In this document: in pieces, positions 36,095-56,052 of the stretch
Numbering within the stretch: the stretch's first letter is position 1
Layout of the letters: the number at the start of each line of letters is the position of its first letter
The notes under the pieces: model-generated
Database searches by the model: none
What the model was told of the DNA's origin: nothing
Seen by the model: only the letters and a program-made list of their open reading frames with translations
Translations under genes and position numbers: made by a program
Virus record (IMG/VR): IMGVR_UViG_3300027573_000035
Coordinates: 1-56,369 of that record
DNA: 56,369 bases
DNA from: a virus
Reading direction: 5' to 3' (one strand)

Positions 36095-36465
36095 ATGAAG
36101 CATGTGAACCAAAAGTGTATGAATATTTTGTTCCCTATCATATCAGGGTCATGCAGAATGATTCAACCAACAATCTTCAGTTCCAATTAAAAGACCCGTA
36201 TTTTTCACAAGGTCTTGAAGATGCAACCATTAAAATGCAAATACGGGATTTGACAACTGATGCCTTGATGAAGGAACTGTCAACTGAAGACGGCACCATC
36301 TTGATTCAGGATGCAACAGAATGCATTTTTGATGTCCTGCCTTATGTATGTGACTTAAATGTGAAGGTGTACAAATATGACATTCAAATCACTTATAACA
36401 ATGGCATGGTGAAAACAAGGTTCAAAGATAAATACACTGTTTTAAAAGATGTAACACATGATTGA
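36091..36465 (+). CDS. Baseplate upper protein-like N-domain (124 aa)
   Basis: The sequence has the pattern of phage baseplate-upper-protein N-terminal domains: a dense series of strands with A-T-I-K-M-Q-I-R-D and [11 protein letters not shown] near the end. These domains attach a fibre to the baseplate. It lies directly upstream of the collagen-like fibre gene and overlaps it by eight bases, so a connector for that fibre is plausible. Confidence 0.6.
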
Positions 36466-38095
36466 AGTCACCATCACTGAAGCAGGCAACATTATTGAAT
36501 CAACCATCAGTGAAAATGGACAGGTGAAGGTTGAAGCAAGTGTTGTTGAAATACCTGTCAAGGCATTTATAAACGGCAATGACCTTGGTGTTGGCATCCC
36601 AGGTCCAATTGGACCGATTGGTGAAACTGGTCCTGAAGGTCCAATTGGTCCTGAAGGTCCACAAGGCATCCAAGGCATTGAAGGTCCAATTGGTCCTGTT
36701 GGTCCTGTTGGACCACAAGGTGAACAAGGCATTCAGGGTGAACAAGGCATTCAGGGTGAAATAGGTCCACAAGGTCCACAAGGCAATGTTGGTGAACAAG
36801 GTGAAGATGGTGGCAGCACAAGCCTTTTTGAATACAATTATTCAACCAATTCAACACCACCACCATCAGCAGGAACTTTCCGGTCAAATGCTGCCACTGC
36901 TGCAACATCCACCATCATTTGGATTCACAGACTTGACATCAGCAATGCAGACAGGAAGATTTTTTTAATGATTGCAAAAACAGGCAGCACTTTTTATGTG
37001 CAGGATGTTGACAATTCAGCAGTTTTTGCAAGGTATTTATTGACAAGTGACCCTGTTGATGATGGCAATTATATCACCATGAACATTGCCTTTCAAGATG
37101 GTGGTGCAGGTTCATTGACAGGCACATCAAGATGCTTGCTTGGTGTTTATGTTCTTGGTCCTGCCGGTCCTGTTGGTCCACAAGGTCCAATTGGTCCACA
37201 AGGTCCGATTGGTGCAACAGGTGTGCAGGGTCCACAAGGTGTGCAGGGTCCAACAGGTCCACAAGGCATCCAAGGTCCAACAGGTGCCACTGGTGCCACT
37301 GGTGCAGCAGGTGGAAGTACAAGCTTATTTGAATATAATTATTCAACAACACATGCTGCACCACCATCAGCAGGAACAGTAAGGTCAAACACCCAACCGG
37401 CACCAACAACCACCATTGGTTGGATTCACAGATTGGACATAACAAATGCAGACAGGAAACCTTTTTTCATGCTTGCACAAACTGACACCATCCTTTATAT
37501 GCAGGACATTGATGATTCAAGCATATATGCAAGGTTTAAGTTGACAGGCAATCCAACTGACAATGGCAATTATATCACCATGCCAATTGTCTGGGTTGAA
37601 GGTGCAGGCACATTGATTGGCAATTTCAGGTGCCTTCTTGGTGTTTATGTCCCAGGTCCACAAGGACCACCAGGTGCTGGTTTCAGTGATGGTGATAAAG
37701 GTGACATGATTATCAGTGATAATGGTGAAACAATTGTGCTTGAACAGAATTTAAAGATTGACAGTAAAGGTGTGACAATTGATGGCATGGGAACAGTCAT
37801 ACTTGCATCAAACACTTCATATGGTTTTTCAATCATTCCATTTGCAGGAAGTGTCACTGGTTGGGATGTTCAGGCAGATGTTTCAGGAAGCATTGTCTTT
37901 GATGTGAAGGTTGGTGGCACTTCCATCATTGGTGCAGGTAATAAGCCAACCTTGTCTTCACAAGTCACCAATGCAGCAAGTGTTTCAGGATGGACAACAC
38001 CTGCCTTTGCACTTAATGATAAACTTGAATTTATTGCTGTTTCAGCATCAACAGTGACAAGGGTCACATTGACTTTATTTTTATTTAGAAATTAA
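36458..38095 (+). CDS. Collagen-like tail fibre protein (545 aa)
   Basis: G-x-y triplets occur at about residues 46-118 and 233-286, often G-P-I, G-P-Q or G-E-Q, so two triple-helical shafts are predicted. Each is followed by a module beginning [13 protein letters not shown] and ending L-G-V-Y-V; the two modules are clear internal duplicates. The last 130 residues form a beta-rich tip. The first 45 residues are a small strand-rich start that could join the preceding baseplate-like protein. Gene fusion or duplication built this fibre. Confidence 0.85.
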
Positions 38096-41622: not shown

Positions 41623-41962
41623 AAAGAAACCACACAAACCACCACACAAGAAGCACTAAACCCAATGAACATGCACTTGCAGCCAAGGGTGCAAAAAAAA
41701 TGCGGTTGTAAAAGGTCACCATCAGTGGATTAAAAGTTTTCGGCAATTAACAATGAAGAAGCTGATGGTGACTTATAACTTGAAGGATGGTGTCAATGGA
41801 AACACAGTTGCATGAAAGCAGCAGATGACAGTTCAACCCTGTTTCCTTCAACTTTGCTTTTCTGTTTTATTTTAGGTTTTAAAGGGTTAATTTTCAAAAA
41901 ACGGCAGTTTGTTTCCACTTACTGCCTTTTTCTATTATTTTACAAATTCAAAAAAAACCAAT
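41623..41962 (+). other. 340-bp stretch without a confident gene
   Basis: Two tiny frames occur here (22 codons from ATG 41665 and 20 codons from ATG 41753), neither convincing. An 11-base inverted repeat (GTCACCATCAG near 41717-41727 and CTGATGGTGAC at 41761-41771) could fold into a stem with a 33-base loop. A terminator-like stem GGCAGT 41903-41908 / ACTGCC 41921-41926 followed by T bases ends the stretch. It may be a decayed gene or an untranslated RNA. Confidence 0.4.
41903..41931 (+). terminator. Terminator-like hairpin before the ATPase gene
   Basis: GGCAGT 41903-41908 pairs with ACTGCC 41921-41926 and is followed by five T bases. It lies about 30 bases before ATG 41963. Confidence 0.5.
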
Positions 41963-43996
41963 ATGAAAAAAGTAATGCTTCAGCAACTAATTCTGAACAA
42001 CTTCAAAGGCATCAGGACAAAGGACATCACCTTTTCCAAACAGACTGACATTTTTGGCGCAAATGAAACAGGAAAATCAACCTTGTACACTGCTTTCATT
42101 TGGTTAATAACCGGCAAGGATGAACAGGACAGGGAAGATTATCAAATCAAGAACACCAATCAAAAGGAATTGAATGAACTGCCACATGAAGTGACCGGTT
42201 TTATCATGGTCAATTCTGAATCCATTAAATTAAAACGGGTTTACAAGGAAAAGTGGCAAAGGGAAAAAGGTCAAAAAGGAAAGACCTTCAAAGGTCATAC
42301 AACTGATTATTATTGGAATGATGTTCCATTAAGTGCAACAGAATATCAGGCAAAAATTAATGACATCATTCATCCATCAAATGTCAGGTTGTTGACCAAT
42401 GTTTCATACTTCAATCAAATGCATTGGGAAAAACAAAGGAATGTCCTGATGACCATTGCAGGCAATATCACCAATGATGAAGTATTTGAAGAACTTGCCA
42501 CACCTGAAGATGATTATGCAACCTTGATTTTTGTTTTGAACAGTGGCAAGACCATTGATGAATATAAAAAAGAATTGGCGGCAAAAAAAGTCCTGCTGAA
42601 GAAGAAATTGTCAAGTTATGAAACAAGGATTGATGAAGCCAAAAGAAATCAGCCTGAAGCAAAGGATTGGGCCGGTCTTCAGGCTAACTTGGATAAAAGG
42701 GAAGAAGACATCACCAAGCTTGATGCAGCCTTAAATGATGCTTCAATTGCCTTGCAGCAGGCATCAACCAATTATTCAGTTAAAACCAAGGAACTGAATC
42801 AACTGCACTTTAAATTGGAAGACATCAGGAACAAGACAAGGAATGAATTGTTCCAAAGGATTAACAAGGTTGAAAATGATATCCAAGCAACTGAAAATTT
42901 GATAAGTCAGTGCAACCTGAAAATATCAAACCTTCAGAATGCATCTGCTAACAATGGCAGGTTCATTGACAACTATAATAAACGACTTCAGGATAATAAT
43001 GAACAAATCATTGCCTTAAGGAAGGAATGGAAGGAAATCAATGCAACTGCCTTTGTCCTGAATGATGCTGACACCATTTGCCCAACCTGTCATCAACCAC
43101 TTCCTGAAGGTGATTTTGAAGCCAAAAAGGAAACCATGTTGAAGCACTTCAATGATGATAAGCAGAAAAAACTGAACCTGCTTGTTAGCCGGTCAAATGA
43201 AATCAAAACAGCCAATGTTGAATGGCAAAAAAATATTGACAACCTTTCTGCTGACAATTCAAAGGAAATTGAAGCATTGACAAATGAAAAGGAAGCAGCA
43301 AAATTCAAACTGATTGAACTGAAAAAGGCAGCAGCAGCCAACAACAATCATGATGAAACTGAAATCAAGGTTGAAGCATTGTTGAAGCTTAATGGTGATG
43401 CAATGAACCTTGTTGATGATATTAAACAGGTTCAATCTGAAATTGAAAGTCTGAAGTTGCAGGAAAACGGCACCATGAAAAATGATGTCATGGTCATTGA
43501 AAGGGATTCAATCAGGTCTGTCATCAACAGCTTAAGAAAGGAACTTGCAATGAAGCAGGTGGTGGAAGAAACTGATAAAAGAATCAAGGAACTGAAGGAT
43601 GAAGAAAGTCAGACAGCACAAGAAATTGCAGATATTGAAAATCATGAATTTCAGGCTGATGAATACATGAAGGTGAAAATGGATATCCTTGAAAAGAAGG
43701 TCAATGGATTGTTCAAATATGTTCACTTCAGGTTGTTTGATAAGCAGGTGAACGGTCAAACCATTGAAGCCTGCATTTGCGAATATAAGCAGGTGCCATT
43801 TCCAACACTTAACACTGCTGCAAAGATTTTGGCAGGTGTGGACATCATCAACACCTTATCAGACTATTATCAGACATATTTGCCTGTATTTATTGACAAT
43901 CGTGAAAGTGTGACCTTCCTGCCTGAAAGTAAAAGTCAAATCATTTCACTTTATGTTTCAGATGCAGACAAAAATTTAAGGATTCAAAATGTTTAA
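41963..43996 (+). CDS. SbcC/Rad50-like ATPase (677 aa)
   Basis: ATG 41963 is favoured over the in-frame start at 41909, which overlaps the terminator hairpin. Walker A is G-A-N-E-T-G-K-S-T at residues 32-40, after an L-x-N-F-K-G-I start. Long coiled-coil stretches surround a CxxC zinc-hook-like C-P-T-C-H-Q-P near residue 372. The Walker B-like V-F-I-D-N-R-E lies near the C-terminus. This fits Rad50/SbcC or phage gp46-type proteins of DNA end processing, though it is shorter than cellular SbcC. No separate SbcD-type nuclease was recognised nearby. RecT follows. Confidence 0.82.
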   Translation: MKKVMLQQLILNNFKGIRTKDITFSKQTDIFGANETGKSTLYTAFIWLITGKDEQDREDYQIKNTNQKELNELPHEVTGFIMVNSESIKLKRVYKEKWQREKGQKGKTFKGHTTDYYWNDVPLSATEYQAKINDIIHPSNVRLLTNVSYFNQMHWEKQRNVLMTIAGNITNDEVFEELATPEDDYATLIFVLNSGKTIDEYKKELAAKKVLLKKKLSSYETRIDEAKRNQPEAKDWAGLQANLDKREEDITKLDAALNDASIALQQASTNYSVKTKELNQLHFKLEDIRNKTRNELFQRINKVENDIQATENLISQCNLKISNLQNASANNGRFIDNYNKRLQDNNEQIIALRKEWKEINATAFVLNDADTICPTCHQPLPEGDFEAKKETMLKHFNDDKQKKLNLLVSRSNEIKTANVEWQKNIDNLSADNSKEIEALTNEKEAAKFKLIELKKAAAANNNHDETEIKVEALLKLNGDAMNLVDDIKQVQSEIESLKLQENGTMKNDVMVIERDSIRSVINSLRKELAMKQVVEETDKRIKELKDEESQTAQEIADIENHEFQADEYMKVKMDILEKKVNGLFKYVHFRLFDKQVNGQTIEACICEYKQVPFPTLNTAAKILAGVDIINTLSDYYQTYLPVFIDNRESVTFLPESKSQIISLYVSDADKNLRIQNV

Positions 43997-44027
43997 TTTA
44001 TATTAGTAAACCAATAAAATTTTAATT

Positions 44028-44882
44028 ATGGAACCATCACCAACCAACCAAGCAGGCAATCAACTTGCCACCACCACCAACAAACCATTGTCCAAAAAAG
44101 ACATCCTGATTAACATGCTTGATGCACCAAGCATCAAGAAACAGTTCAGTGAAATACTGAAGGATAATGCAGCAACCTTTTTAGGGTCCATCCTTGACTT
44201 ATTCAATACTGATTCAACCTTGCAACAGTGTGAACCTTCAGACCTTATTAAAGAAGCTTTAAAGGCTGCTGTCATGAAGCTTCCTATAAACAAATCACTT
44301 GGTTATGCTTATATTATCCCGTATTTTGAAAACAAAAATATCAATGGTCAATGGATTAAAAAGCTTGTTCCCCAATTTCAGATTGGTTATAAAGGACTGA
44401 TTCAAATGGCAATCAGAACACAACAATATAAATTCATCAATGCTGATGCTGTCTTTGAAGGTGAATTTCAAAGGAAGGATAAATTGTCAGGTGAATTTGA
44501 CATGAATGGAACAAAGACAAGTGATGTTGTGACCGGTTATTTTGCTTATATACAGATGTTGAATGGATTCAGCAAAACATTGTTCATGACCAAGGAACAG
44601 GTTTTGATTCATGCAAAAAAATATTCAAAGGCATATGGCAATGCAGGTGGACCATGGCAGAAGGATTTTGATGCAATGGCACTTAAGACGGTCTTAAGGA
44701 ACCTGCTTTCACATTATGGATATCTGTCAATTGAAATGGTTCAGACCATCAGCAAAGACCTTGAAGATGATTCTGTTGAAGATGTGGTTGCAGAAGAAAT
44801 AAAGAACAATGCCAACAGTGAAGTCATGCAATTCACTGATGCTGAAGTTGTGAAGGAAGATGATTCAGAATGTCCAATATGA
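44028..44882 (+). CDS. recT: RecT single-strand annealing protein (284 aa)
   Basis: The order of segments matches RecT proteins: L-P-I-N-K-S-L-G-Y-A-Y-I-I-P-Y near residues 88-102, P-Q-F-Q-I-G-Y-K-G-L-I-Q-M-A near 118-132, and the later G-G-P-W-x-x-D-F-D-A-M-A-L-K-T-V-L-R-N-L-L near 206-227. RecT anneals complementary strands during phage recombination, normally after end resection; here the SbcC-like ATPase precedes it. Size is typical. The leader AAACCAATAAAA at 44008-44019 supports ATG 44028. The C-terminus is acidic. Confidence 0.92.
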   Translation: MEPSPTNQAGNQLATTTNKPLSKKDILINMLDAPSIKKQFSEILKDNAATFLGSILDLFNTDSTLQQCEPSDLIKEALKAAVMKLPINKSLGYAYIIPYFENKNINGQWIKKLVPQFQIGYKGLIQMAIRTQQYKFINADAVFEGEFQRKDKLSGEFDMNGTKTSDVVTGYFAYIQMLNGFSKTLFMTKEQVLIHAKKYSKAYGNAGGPWQKDFDAMALKTVLRNLLSHYGYLSIEMVQTISKDLEDDSVEDVVAEEIKNNANSEVMQFTDAEVVKEDDSECPI

Positions 44883-51467: not shown

Positions 51468-52925
51468 ATGGACTTCCAAAAAGGTAGGCATTATGATTAT
51501 GCCTTGGAAATGGCAATCATTGGGGCATGTATGCTTGAAAGTGATGCTGTTGACAAAATTTATGGTCTTATCCAATCAAAACACTTTTATGATGAAAAAA
51601 ATCAATTCCTGCTGAAAAGGATTTTCATGATGAAAACAAATCATCAGGCAATTGACCTTTTGACGGTCACATTTGGTGCAGGTGTAAACATGAAGGAATG
51701 GAACAAAATTTCACCAACCATTAATCTTCCTGCATATGCTTCACTGACAATGAATGCTGTTGTCAGCACTGCACACATGCAGGAACATTGCAGGCAGTTG
51801 CACCAACTTTTTGTGAATAGGAAAGCACTTGAAATCCAAATGAATGTCGGCAAAAATCCTGATGGTGTGGAAGCCATGTATCTTTTAAAAAAAGAAATTG
51901 ATGAACTTTTTGTTGATGTTACCTTGGATGATTTTGATGAAGGTGATGATGGAATAGTTCAGGATTTGTTTCCACATATTGATGAAAGGAAAGACAAACC
52001 AATGATTGGTCTTCCAACAGGGTTTGCAAGAATCACTGAAGCAATTGGTGGACTTCAAAACGGTCACCTGATTGTCGTTGGTGCAAGACCATCTGTTGGA
52101 AAAACTGCATTTGCTGAAACAATTGCACTTGCTGCATCAAAATTTGTTCCTGTTGGAATCAACCTGCTTGAAATGCCAAAAAAAGAATATTTGGCAAGAC
52201 TGCTTGCACAAAAAACAGATTTTACTTTTAAACAAATCTGGGAAAATAAAATGACTGATGATGAATACAAGACATTTATGCAGCAGGCATATTTGGGTGG
52301 AAAAATTTATATTAATAGCAATATTTATATAACCATGACCGGCATTGAATCAGGTGCAATGAGATTAAAAGAAAAATACAACCTTGGATTGCTTATCATT
52401 GATTATTTGCAACTGATAACAAGTGAAATAAAAGGCAAGGAAGAAAACCGTGAAAGGGAAGTGTCAAAAATATCAAGAAGGTGCAAACAACTTGCAATGG
52501 ATTTGGACATACCGGTTGTGTTATTGGCACAACTGAATCGTGCAAGTGAATTGACAGGTGATAAAAAACCAAGGCTGCATAATTTAAGGGAATCAGGTGC
52601 AATTGAACAGGATGCAGATGATGTCATCTTGCTTCACCGTGACCGTGAAAAAGAAAAAATATTAATTAGGTCTGGGCAAACAAAAGACCTTCCTGCATTT
52701 GCCATGGTTGAAAAAGCAAGGAATGGTCATTGCAATGATTATGATTTGCTGTTCAATGGACCAAAAATGCTTTTCACTGAACCACCTGAAGACATAAGAC
52801 AACCGGCACAATTGACCATTGTTGGTCTGCCAAAAATTGAACTGCCTGCTTCAAAAAATTGGTATGAAAAGGATGATGATGACAATGGTTTTGATGATGG
52901 CTTTAATGAAGAACAATTGTTTTAA
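51468..52925 (+). CDS. dnaB: Replicative DNA helicase, DnaB family (485 aa)
   Basis: An N-terminal helical domain is followed by the RecA-like ATPase core. Walker A is G-A-R-P-S-V-G-K-T at residues 205-213, Walker B is L-L-I-I-D-Y-L-Q at 308-315, and the later L-L-A-Q-L-N-R, L-R-E-S-G-A-I-E-Q-D-A-D and V-I-L-L-H-R-D segments match DnaB motifs, including the Arg and Gln that contact nucleotide and DNA. It unwinds DNA ahead of the fork. The C-terminal 30 residues are acidic and may be a flexible tail. Length is typical. Confidence 0.92.
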   Translation: MDFQKGRHYDYALEMAIIGACMLESDAVDKIYGLIQSKHFYDEKNQFLLKRIFMMKTNHQAIDLLTVTFGAGVNMKEWNKISPTINLPAYASLTMNAVVSTAHMQEHCRQLHQLFVNRKALEIQMNVGKNPDGVEAMYLLKKEIDELFVDVTLDDFDEGDDGIVQDLFPHIDERKDKPMIGLPTGFARITEAIGGLQNGHLIVVGARPSVGKTAFAETIALAASKFVPVGINLLEMPKKEYLARLLAQKTDFTFKQIWENKMTDDEYKTFMQQAYLGGKIYINSNIYITMTGIESGAMRLKEKYNLGLLIIDYLQLITSEIKGKEENREREVSKISRRCKQLAMDLDIPVVLLAQLNRASELTGDKKPRLHNLRESGAIEQDADDVILLHRDREKEKILIRSGQTKDLPAFAMVEKARNGHCNDYDLLFNGPKMLFTEPPEDIRQPAQLTIVGLPKIELPASKNWYEKDDDDNGFDDGFNEEQLF

Positions 52926-54657: not shown

Positions 54658-55203
54658 ATGATGCAGGAAGTCATTGATGAAACAACTGAAGTTGAAGTTG
54701 GCAAATATTACCTTGTCAGGTGTGCAAAGATGAAATATGGTGGCACTGACAATGATGCCGGTTTTGTTCCTGTTTATGGACATTCACACAAGGACATGCA
54801 GTTTGGATTGAATGTCATGCATTATCATGTGGATGGAAGGTTCATGCCGGTTAATAATGGTTGGTTGGTTGATGAAAATGGAAGGACCAATTTGATTTTG
54901 ATGGAAGGCAAAGACCAAAAAGCAAATTTGAATTATGTGGATGAAATTGTCATCAAAAGAAGGAAATGCAGACGGTTGACAACCGGCATAAATCCACCAT
55001 CTTTCACCAAGGAAAATCATAAATATATCATTTGGTATAACAGCATGATTGGAAAGTCCTGCAAAGGCAGGAAATGTCCACATTATGGAACTTTGATGAA
55101 GATGGTTGATGGTGTCCTTGAATGTCCTTTGCATGGTCTTAAAGGTCATCCAATTGAAGAAAAAATCATTCCATTAAATTTCAACATTAAAGGCATAAAA
55201 TGA
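54658..55203 (+). CDS. Rieske-like [2Fe-2S] domain protein (181 aa)
   Basis: C-P-H at residues 140-142 and C-P-L-H-G at 156-160 form the C-x-H ... C-x-x-H pattern of Rieske iron-sulfur sites, with 13 residues between H142 and C156. The preceding W-Y-N-S-M-I-G-K-S-C-K-G-R-K-C is conserved in style with other phage proteins of this kind. The N-terminal 110 residues are beta-rich. The role is unknown; an electron-transfer or metal-structural function is possible, and a zinc-bound version cannot be excluded. The gene overlaps the next by four bases. Confidence 0.6.
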   Translation: MMQEVIDETTEVEVGKYYLVRCAKMKYGGTDNDAGFVPVYGHSHKDMQFGLNVMHYHVDGRFMPVNNGWLVDENGRTNLILMEGKDQKANLNYVDEIVIKRRKCRRLTTGINPPSFTKENHKYIIWYNSMIGKSCKGRKCPHYGTLMKMVDGVLECPLHGLKGHPIEEKIIPLNFNIKGIK

Positions 55204-55508
55204 AACATTATCTGAAGCAGGACATTTATTGTCCAAACTGTAAAACAAGGATTAATGGTGCAATGAACATTGGCAAGGAAGATGAACCACCTGAAAATGG
55301 TGATGTGACTTTCTGCATTCACTGTTATTCATTTTTGACTTATGTTGGCAGTGAAGGAAATTTTATCATGTCAGCATTAAATGAAGATGATATTTTGAAA
55401 CTAAAAGAAGATGAACCTGAAGTCTTTCATCAATTGATGGATGCATTTTTTGATTTTGTTGGAATAAAAATTGATTCACCATGGACTTCAAAAATTTCAC
55501 CAAACTGA
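55200..55508 (+). CDS. Zinc-ribbon protein (102 aa)
   Basis: Residues 11-14 (C-P-N-C) and about 39-42 (C-I-H-C) form a two-knuckle zinc ribbon. The C-terminal part is helical and acidic. Such proteins often act as adaptors in nucleic-acid complexes; no target is evident. It overlaps the next small gene by 28 bases. Confidence 0.7.
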   Translation: MKHYLKQDIYCPNCKTRINGAMNIGKEDEPPENGDVTFCIHCYSFLTYVGSEGNFIMSALNEDDILKLKEDEPEVFHQLMDAFFDFVGIKIDSPWTSKISPN

Positions 55509-55636
55509 AGAAGCTTTATGCATATGCAGTTGAACATGATAAAAAAGAAATCAGGTTCCAAGGTCAAACCATCCTGACTGTTTATGCAAAATATTTGATT
55601 GAATATCTGACACCAAAATTCAAAAATCATCATTGA
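55481..55636 (+). CDS. Hypothetical small basic protein (51 aa)
   Basis: ATG 55481 lies within the end of the zinc-ribbon gene and the frame closes at TGA 55634-55636, which overlaps the TTG start of the next gene. The product is rich in Lys, Tyr and His and likely helical. Its coupling to both neighbours supports it. Function unknown. Confidence 0.6.
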   Translation: MDFKNFTKLKKLYAYAVEHDKKEIRFQGQTILTVYAKYLIEYLTPKFKNHH

Positions 55637-56052
55637 GAAGATTTAAAATTGATACTGATTATTTAAACAGGATGAAGGAAAAAGGATTCATCAAGGGTTT
55701 CTTCATTAATCCTGATAAGCACAAAAAGTTGGTGCCATATAATAAATTCAGAAACATTAAAGTTGTCATTGATGGAAAAAGGTTTGCATCAAAAAAAGAA
55801 GCAAGAAGGTATGTTGAATTAAGAATGAAACAAACAATTGGTGAAATATCTGAACTTGAATGTCAGGTCAAATATGTCCTGATTGAAAAAAGTGCCACTG
55901 AAAAACAATGTGCATATTTTGCTGACTTCAGATACAGGAACAGGAATGATGAAGTGATTGTTGAAGATACAAAAGGGAAGAAGACAGACCTTTATATCAT
56001 GAAAAGGAAACTGATGCTTGAAAAGTTTGGAATAAAAATAAATGAATTATGA
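55633..56052 (+). CDS. DUF1064 nuclease-like protein (139 aa)
   Basis: The pattern V-V-I-D-G-K-R-F-A-S-K-K-E-A-R-R-Y near residues 44-60, L-E-C-Q-V-K-Y-V-L near 74-83, and Y-F-A-D-F-R-Y then E-D-T-K-G-K-K-T matches DUF1064 phage proteins, a PD-(D/E)XK-like fold often linked to Holliday-junction or recombination nucleases. TTG at 55633 begins the frame; ATG 55672 (residue 14) is the alternative start. It probably acts in DNA processing late in replication. Confidence 0.78.
   Translation: MRRFKIDTDYLNRMKEKGFIKGFFINPDKHKKLVPYNKFRNIKVVIDGKRFASKKEARRYVELRMKQTIGEISELECQVKYVLIEKSATEKQCAYFADFRYRNRNDEVIVEDTKGKKTDLYIMKRKLMLEKFGIKINEL

Follow-up and report, generated by a model that had tools for sequence, protein, structure and literature searches.

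A gene in a tailed-phage genome encodes a protein with a compact Rieske-like motif near its C terminus. The four putative cluster ligands are conserved among relatives, the module that carries them is akin in sequence to Rieske modules, the predicted architecture has two parts, and relatives in soil bacteria are associated with SOS-type genes. On balance, we lean toward a reading wherein the protein, carried by phages and conjugative elements, holds a [2Fe-2S] cluster and serves as an accessory in the tolerance of DNA damage or in the processing of DNA, with its metal, redox activity, and role inferred from comparative and modeling data.

Under this reading, the protein would comprise an N-terminal, probably SH3-like barrel bearing a His/Asp cluster, a helix, and a compact Rieske-type hairpin near the C terminus, wherein C140, H142, C156, and H159 most likely hold a [2Fe-2S] cluster. 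The protein would probably act in the replication/recombination region of the phage as a redox-active accessory, either a sensor or an electron donor. Its relatives would act likewise inside the SOS mutagenesis cassettes of conjugative elements, possibly with a direct role in repair. Because the soil-bacterial mobile-element relatives sit among damage-repair genes, the family may represent a redox component of mobile-DNA repair that has been overlooked. If a [2Fe-2S] cluster is bound, then a Rieske-type cluster occupies an unusual setting, held by a compact terminal hairpin that follows an SH3-like barrel. This arrangement opens the testable question of what a redox cluster does in mobile-DNA damage tolerance.

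The phage gene and its motif

The DNA analyzed here, called the window, is the whole of virus record IMGVR_UViG_3300027573_000035 (56,369 bases). Because its genes include those for terminase, portal, tape measure, and tail-fiber proteins, the window represents a tailed phage. The open reading frame (ORF) with the C-P-H...C-P-L-H-G pattern was found exactly where the original prediction had placed it (Table 1). Its product belongs to phrog_10072, a phage protein family that carries neither a functional nor a Rieske label, with residues 12 to 164 of the protein aligned to profile positions 3 to 159 of 178. An identical protein is encoded on two further viral contigs, L001 and L002 (IMG/VR 3300034147_000148 and 3300011409_000032).

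The gene looks like a member of an operon because it is separated by a 2-nt gap from the small ORF upstream and its stop codon overlaps the start of the next ORF by 4 nt. Indeed, the 61-codon ORF and the Rieske-like gene probably share a transcript. A scan for promoters and terminators gave counts within ~1 standard deviation of those in shuffled sequences. The downstream ORF contains CPNC and CIHC pairs, which make it zinc-ribbon-like at scores under every cut-off.

The sequence AGGAGG occurs 0 times on the two strands of the window versus a mean of 10.5 in shuffled sequences, as is the case for hosts that do not rely on Shine–Dalgarno sites. This absence, together with the presence of relatives in Bacteroidota, suggests that the phage host belongs to this phylum. 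Elsewhere in the window, positions 36458 to 38095 encode a tail-fiber-like protein with matches to many tail families, some of them collagen-like. At positions 41781 to 41852, ARAGORN calls a tRNA with an anticodon of two bases and an undetermined type; this tRNA is possibly degenerate or false.

Table 1. Positions in the window of the Rieske-like gene, its parts, and neighboring genes.
Feature	Position	Strand	Basis
SbcC-like and RecT-like annealing proteins, recombination, upstream	41909..44882	+	phrog_77 E 3.9e-56; phrog_148 E 2.9e-65
DnaB-type replicative helicase, upstream	51468..52925	+	PF03796 E 1.5e-68
Upstream small ORF, 61 aa	54470..54655	+	Ends 2 nt before the Rieske-like gene; weak phrog_6696 match, E 3.5e-4
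Rieske-like protein gene, 181 aa, phrog_10072 family	54658..55203	+	ORF; phrog_10072 E 4.2e-32
N-terminal part, residues ~6-105, SH3-like small beta-barrel (modeled)	54673..54972	+	AlphaFold2; weak VIA matches, best Z 3.0
Invariant His/Asp cluster, H44-x-D46...H55-x-H57-x-D59-x-R61	54787..54840	+	33/33 rows of alignment A5
C-terminal Rieske-like cluster-binding module (putative), residues 136-173	55063..55176	+	VIA overlay, Z 2.5-2.9
Four putative cluster ligands, C140, H142, C156, H159, spacing 13	55075..55134	+	Motif scan, A5 conservation, spacing count
Downstream ORF, 102 aa, CxxC...CxxC zinc-ribbon-like	55200..55508	+	Sub-threshold zinc-ribbon matches only
DUF1064 / Holliday junction resolvase-like protein, downstream	55633..56052	+	PF06356 E 9.9e-18; phrog_190 E 2.7e-31

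The motif reads C140-P-H142-x13-C156-P-L-H159-G-L (CPHYGTLMKMVDGVLECPLHGL, starting at position 55075). The 13 residues between its first His and second Cys make it compact, since the Rieske consensus CXHX15-17CX2H calls for 15 to 17 (PMC4814904, PMC7907043). When the protein sequence was shuffled 200,000 times, the pattern C.H-x13-17-C..H arose 182 times and the pattern CPH-x13-17-CP.H arose once. A looser version, C.H-x8-30-C..H, has six other six-frame matches genome-wide, all on the minus strand, and the motif by itself is weak evidence on that scale. The Pfam Rieske profile (PF00355) matches the window protein with 13.9 bits (E 0.053), a value that does not reach the gathering cut-off of 20.3. 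The motif nonetheless appears to be more than chance because it is conserved among relatives, and a chance origin was rejected on the basis of this conservation and of the profile matches described below.

Ligand conservation and kinship with Rieske proteins

To avoid circularity, the IMG/VR collection was searched with patterns from an alignment of the N-terminal part of the protein only (A3). The 34 loci recovered comprise 30 full-length ORFs and four truncated ones (L066, L068, L078, and L079). All 30 full-length viral ORFs, a set that includes the window protein itself twice along with several near-copies among the Leptospira-type rows, retain CPH-x13-17-CP.H, with a spacing of 13 in 19, 16 in five, and 17 in six. 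Scanning with the C-terminal motif yielded 40 loci. Full-length family ORFs are present at 18 of these and partial ones at two (L022 and L037); the others were judged to be chance frames or unrelated proteins. HxHxDxR[FW] is present in each of these 18 full-length ORFs. Thus, the family has two co-conserved regions, since a search with either region recovers the other. Among bacterial genomes, a first scan (A2) found no relative and a second (A4) found 15. No match was obtained when the window protein (E ≤ 10) and relatives L065, L072, L048, and L070 were compared by tblastn with 50,697 phage records.

Alignment A5 was assembled from 33 rows (the window protein, 14 bacterial-genome loci, and 18 viral loci) without near-copies or broken genes, and its rows are 23 to 51% identical to the window protein. 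Thirteen positions are invariant in all 33 rows: H44, D46, H55, H57, D59, R61, F62, C140, P141, H142, C156, P157, and H159. The invariance of HYHxDxRF is partly imposed because HYHxDxRF also served as a search pattern. The four C-terminal ligands were absent from these N-terminal search patterns, with whole-protein tblastn confirmation in the genome scans adding a mild bias. A spacing of 13 characterizes 23 of the 33 rows, which constitute the clade of the window protein, and a spacing of 16 to 17 characterizes the 10 rows of a sister clade. The two spacing classes lie on opposite sides of one supported branch (99/95) of the unrooted A5 tree, and both include members that match phrog_10072, as does the window protein.

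The number of residues after the last ligand ranges from 11 to 48 across A5 and is 22 in the window protein. Of eight pairs compared, the six with unsaturated dS have dN/dS values of 0.08 to 0.23, five of these six being pairs within the Leptospira rows. The gene appears to decay in some lineages, because truncated, split, or stop-containing copies occur (the four truncated viral ORFs named above and L113, L155, and L156). A more distant member at L012:933-1835, on a 148-kb viral contig, carries HWHTDGRW and CPHHP...CPSHG followed by a long C-terminal extension.

Profile comparisons link the family to Rieske proteins more directly than does the window protein by itself. Six of 10 relatives scanned pass the Pfam Rieske cut-off (L065, L067, L069, L072, L074, and L076; 23.5 to 32.1 bits). 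All six have a spacing of 16 to 17 and are drawn from seven sister-clade proteins scanned, whereas L070 (spacing 16-17) and three spacing-13 proteins fall below the cut-off; L111 (spacing 13) gave no Pfam Rieske match at E ≤ 1. All 20 A4 members match the profile at E ≤ 1. When the A5 profile was compared with PDB sequences, each of the 12 matches at E ≤ 1 was a Rieske protein (about eight distinct proteins), and these matches cover the C-terminal module only. The best PDB match of the A4 profile is SxtDIOX (E 9.8e-5), and two of its 18 matches at E ≤ 10 are not Rieske proteins (RUN1, E 1.1). A nitrate reductase (E 1.3) was the lone match of a single-sequence PDB search and was taken as chance. 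One match (E 1.6) came from comparing the N-terminal alignment with the PDB and was not used, and NCBIfam gave nothing above its cut-off.

The family shares with the PF00355 Rieske domain, as found in SxtDIOX, DdmC, and T4moC, the CxH...CxxH ligands and their CP-H and CP-x-H contexts. It differs in the spacing of 13 in the window clade, in the position of the module near the C terminus, and in having a distinct N-terminal part that is probably SH3-like. In Rieske non-heme iron oxygenases, an N-terminal Rieske domain is followed by the catalytic domain, whereas the module of the window protein is C-terminal. One Rhizobium member with a spacing of 16 has already been annotated as “Rieske 2Fe-2S domain-containing protein”, and thus recognition of the motif is not new for family members with a spacing of 16 to 17. 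Each of the four listed members from Leptospira plasmids bears the name “hypothetical protein”.

Predicted two-part architecture

An AlphaFold2 model computed on A5 (pLDDT 88.9, pTM 0.83) places a small barrel in front of the putative cluster-binding module. In VIA comparisons, parts of residues 1 to 109 match small SH3-like barrels, the name of the fold being our reading of the matched chains. The invariant residues H44 and D46, along with H55, H57, and D59, alternate at the ends of model strands E33-46 and E51-58. Because they alternate along two strands, these His and Asp residues perhaps lie on one face, and in the model they could form a second metal site.

The C-terminal module overlays Rieske chains 1q90_C (37 residues, 2.0 Å), 9rk4_A (34 residues, 1.7 Å), 3azc (36 residues, 1.8 Å), 7qrm_D (35 residues, 1.7 Å), and 9rk3 (33 residues, 1.7 Å), and three further Rieske chains overlay poorly (4.3 to 4.9 Å). 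Rieske chains make up eight of the best 30 VIA rows, covering residues 136 to 181 at most with Z values of 2.1 to 2.9. The zinc protein RNF216 (7m4n) also appears among the rows (Z 2.0, 2.8 Å over 43 residues). All VIA Z values are ≤3.0, a range that may reflect merely a common arrangement of elements. No VIA row aligned the N-terminal part with a Rieske base domain, a result that does not extend to families outside the rows. For an earlier structure model, VIA listed no match with Z ≥ 2, and Foldseek found nothing at E ≤ 0.001 against the PDB and viral models. The model suggests that an SH3-like barrel is linked to a cluster-binding hairpin of the Rieske type.

These findings bear out the original prediction insofar as it described a Rieske-like motif with compact spacing. 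The ligands are conserved, most of the sister-clade proteins, which have normal spacing, exceed the Pfam cut-off, the PDB profile matches at E ≤ 1 are uniformly Rieske proteins, and the modeled module overlays Rieske subdomains, albeit at low Z. Loss of the ligands in homologs, which the prediction had named as one outcome that would speak against it, was seen in none of the 30 full-length viral ORFs. The roles that it had proposed in hydroxylation, modification chemistry, or sensing found no direct evidence. The genes that surround some of the relatives suggest DNA damage tolerance.

Genomic neighborhoods and the candidate role

Members occur in 13 of 149 Mucilaginibacter genomes, three of 395 genomes in a phylum sample, 12 of 399 in a family sample, and six of 222 from the taxonomic family that includes G001, a genome whose locus (L104) carries the label Spirosomataceae in the tree. 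All 13 Mucilaginibacter loci have genes for SRAP, ImuA/ImuB, DnaE/DnaE2, or DinB within 8 kb, and no copy in this genus was found outside such an SOS-type neighborhood. These neighbors were called by BLASTP to representatives; Pfam confirms SRAP, IMS, DNA_pol3_alpha, and PHP in those scanned, and the name ImuA, whose representative has no Pfam match, is our reading. Five loci carry ImuA-ImuB, with DnaE2 in view in four (L108, L110, L112, and L114) and L116 ending at a contig edge. Seven others (L109, L111, L115, L118, L152, L153, and L154) carry DinB and a DnaE. In L155, the copy is split into two ORFs, with a DnaE2 fragment and SRAP nearby. SRAP is found in 11 of the 13 loci, L112 and L116 being the exceptions, and in L111, L118, and L152 the ATG of the Rieske-like gene overlaps the SRAP stop codon by one base. 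An AlkB-type 2OG-Fe(II) oxygenase gene lies ~0.3 kb upstream of the Rieske-like gene in L112 and L114.

The 13 loci are not independent because the nine Mucilaginibacter rows in the A5 tree form one clade (99/98). Both loci checked for conjugation genes contain them (TraM and TraJ in L118, and ArdC and a coupling protein in L115), which suggests that these loci are integrative conjugative elements. The cassette genes are far commoner in the genus than the Rieske-like gene (ImuA-type in 118 and L118-type SRAP at E ≤ 1e-40 in 43 of 149 genomes, versus 13), and thus the latter looks like an optional accessory.

Outside Mucilaginibacter, a search of 40 loci with the cassette proteins covered the whole window and varying flanks elsewhere (≤5 to 10 kb for viral loci), with some elements fetched twice. 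Matches occurred only in L117 and L156, both from bacterial genomes; neither in the window nor in any other viral locus covered were cassette genes found beside the Rieske-like gene. An SRAP-like gene lies 3.3 kb from the Rieske-like gene in L117. In L156, from the family of G001, the copy is interrupted by two in-frame stops and adjoins IMS+DUF4113 (UmuC-like), Peptidase_S24 (UmuD-like), and SRAP genes. The neighbors outside Mucilaginibacter are otherwise further genes of DNA metabolism alongside many of unknown function. Cytosine-5 methylases account for five of the 111 neighbor proteins scanned, which were picked from 198 listed, and DnaB (2), NinG (2), and DUF5131 (1) are also among the families listed (25 of 57).

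SRAP has been described in SOS operons with ImuA-ImuB-DnaE2, DinB, or UmuDC (PMC3765255), and the Rieske-like genes of the Mucilaginibacter loci and L156 sit among such genes. The main text of this description (Aravind et al. 2013, PMC3765255) does not contain the words “Rieske”, “ferredoxin”, or “iron-sulfur”; two zinc-chelating domains are noted there as neighbors of Ku and DUF159 genes. The involvement of a Rieske protein in regulation has a precedent in ThnA3, a ferredoxin in a regulatory cascade (PMC4814904), which differs from the present family in having CXHX15-17CX2H and in serving aromatic catabolism, not DNA. ThnA3 absorbs maximally at 320 and 461 nm and has a shoulder at 580 nm (PMC4814904). 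Titles and abstract openings in the open-licence literature did not report the family or a Rieske association with SOS genes or SRAP. To our knowledge, a link between a Rieske-type protein and SRAP with error-prone polymerases has not been described.

The main rivals to a [2Fe-2S]-holding accessory are zinc binding and cargo clustering, which are not mutually exclusive. The protein might be a zinc-binding structural or nucleic-acid-binding protein, wherein the CPH...CPxH hairpin, perhaps of Rieske ancestry, holds zinc and has no redox function, while DNA, RNA, or a protein is the ligand of the barrel. The compact spacing of 13, the modeled SH3-like barrel, the CxxC pairs in the next ORF, and the presence of RNF216 among the structural matches are all consistent with this idea, and a binding protein would suit a DNA-metabolism context equally well. 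We nevertheless consider it rather unlikely: no zinc family reaches its cut-off, the only one to appear being zf-MIZ at E 0.54 in one member as against Rieske at E ≤ 1 in all A4 members, the PDB profile matches at E ≤ 1 name Rieske proteins exclusively, and the sister clade keeps normal Rieske spacing. The SOS association, for its part, might reflect the sorting of cargo on conjugative elements, with the protein performing an unrelated task such as anti-defense or electron transfer to another enzyme. Such sorting would fit the conjugation genes of L115 and L118, the different neighbors outside Mucilaginibacter (cytosine-5 methylases, DnaB, NinG, and DUF5131), and the single clade of Mucilaginibacter rows. 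It accords less well with the three kinds of polymerase genes (ImuAB-DnaE2, DinB-DnaE, and UmuDC-like) that accompany the gene in differing orientations, with the one-base SRAP overlap in three loci, or with the finding of every Mucilaginibacter copy in an SOS-type neighborhood, and cargo sorting is in our estimate a doubtful, if serious, explanation.

A miniature Rieske oxygenase, wherein H44, D46, H55, H57, and D59 hold a mononuclear iron that is fed by the [2Fe-2S] cluster and the enzyme oxidizes damaged or modified bases or some other substrate, strikes us as improbable. The five residues are invariant and perhaps share a face, Rieske oxygenases are the top PDB profile matches, and AlkB-type oxygenase genes are near in two loci. 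However, the PDB matches are confined to the C-terminal module, this module is C-terminal rather than N-terminal in a protein of 181 residues, and the neighbor families listed, which were sampled non-systematically (25 of 57 in one set), include no reductase partner. We likewise see little likelihood that the family constitutes an unrecognized, minimal class of Rieske enzyme on phages and conjugative elements in which a [2Fe-2S] cluster is coupled to a second iron site in the SH3-like barrel. Such an enzyme would oxidize or sense damaged DNA bases, and in some elements would have been recruited to SOS mutagenesis.

Several neighboring ORFs merit mention. The term “DUF5131” was not found in the open-licence papers searched. 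A DUF5131 (phage Gp37/Gp68) ORF at L157:8560-9513 overlaps the Rieske-like ORF in a genome from the family of G001, and another at L162:7970-8905 is located near the family gene on a Leptospira plasmid that also carries RusA. Directly 3′ of the Rieske-like gene in L112, a 642-aa ORF (L112:8489-10414) has no Pfam match at E ≤ 0.001.
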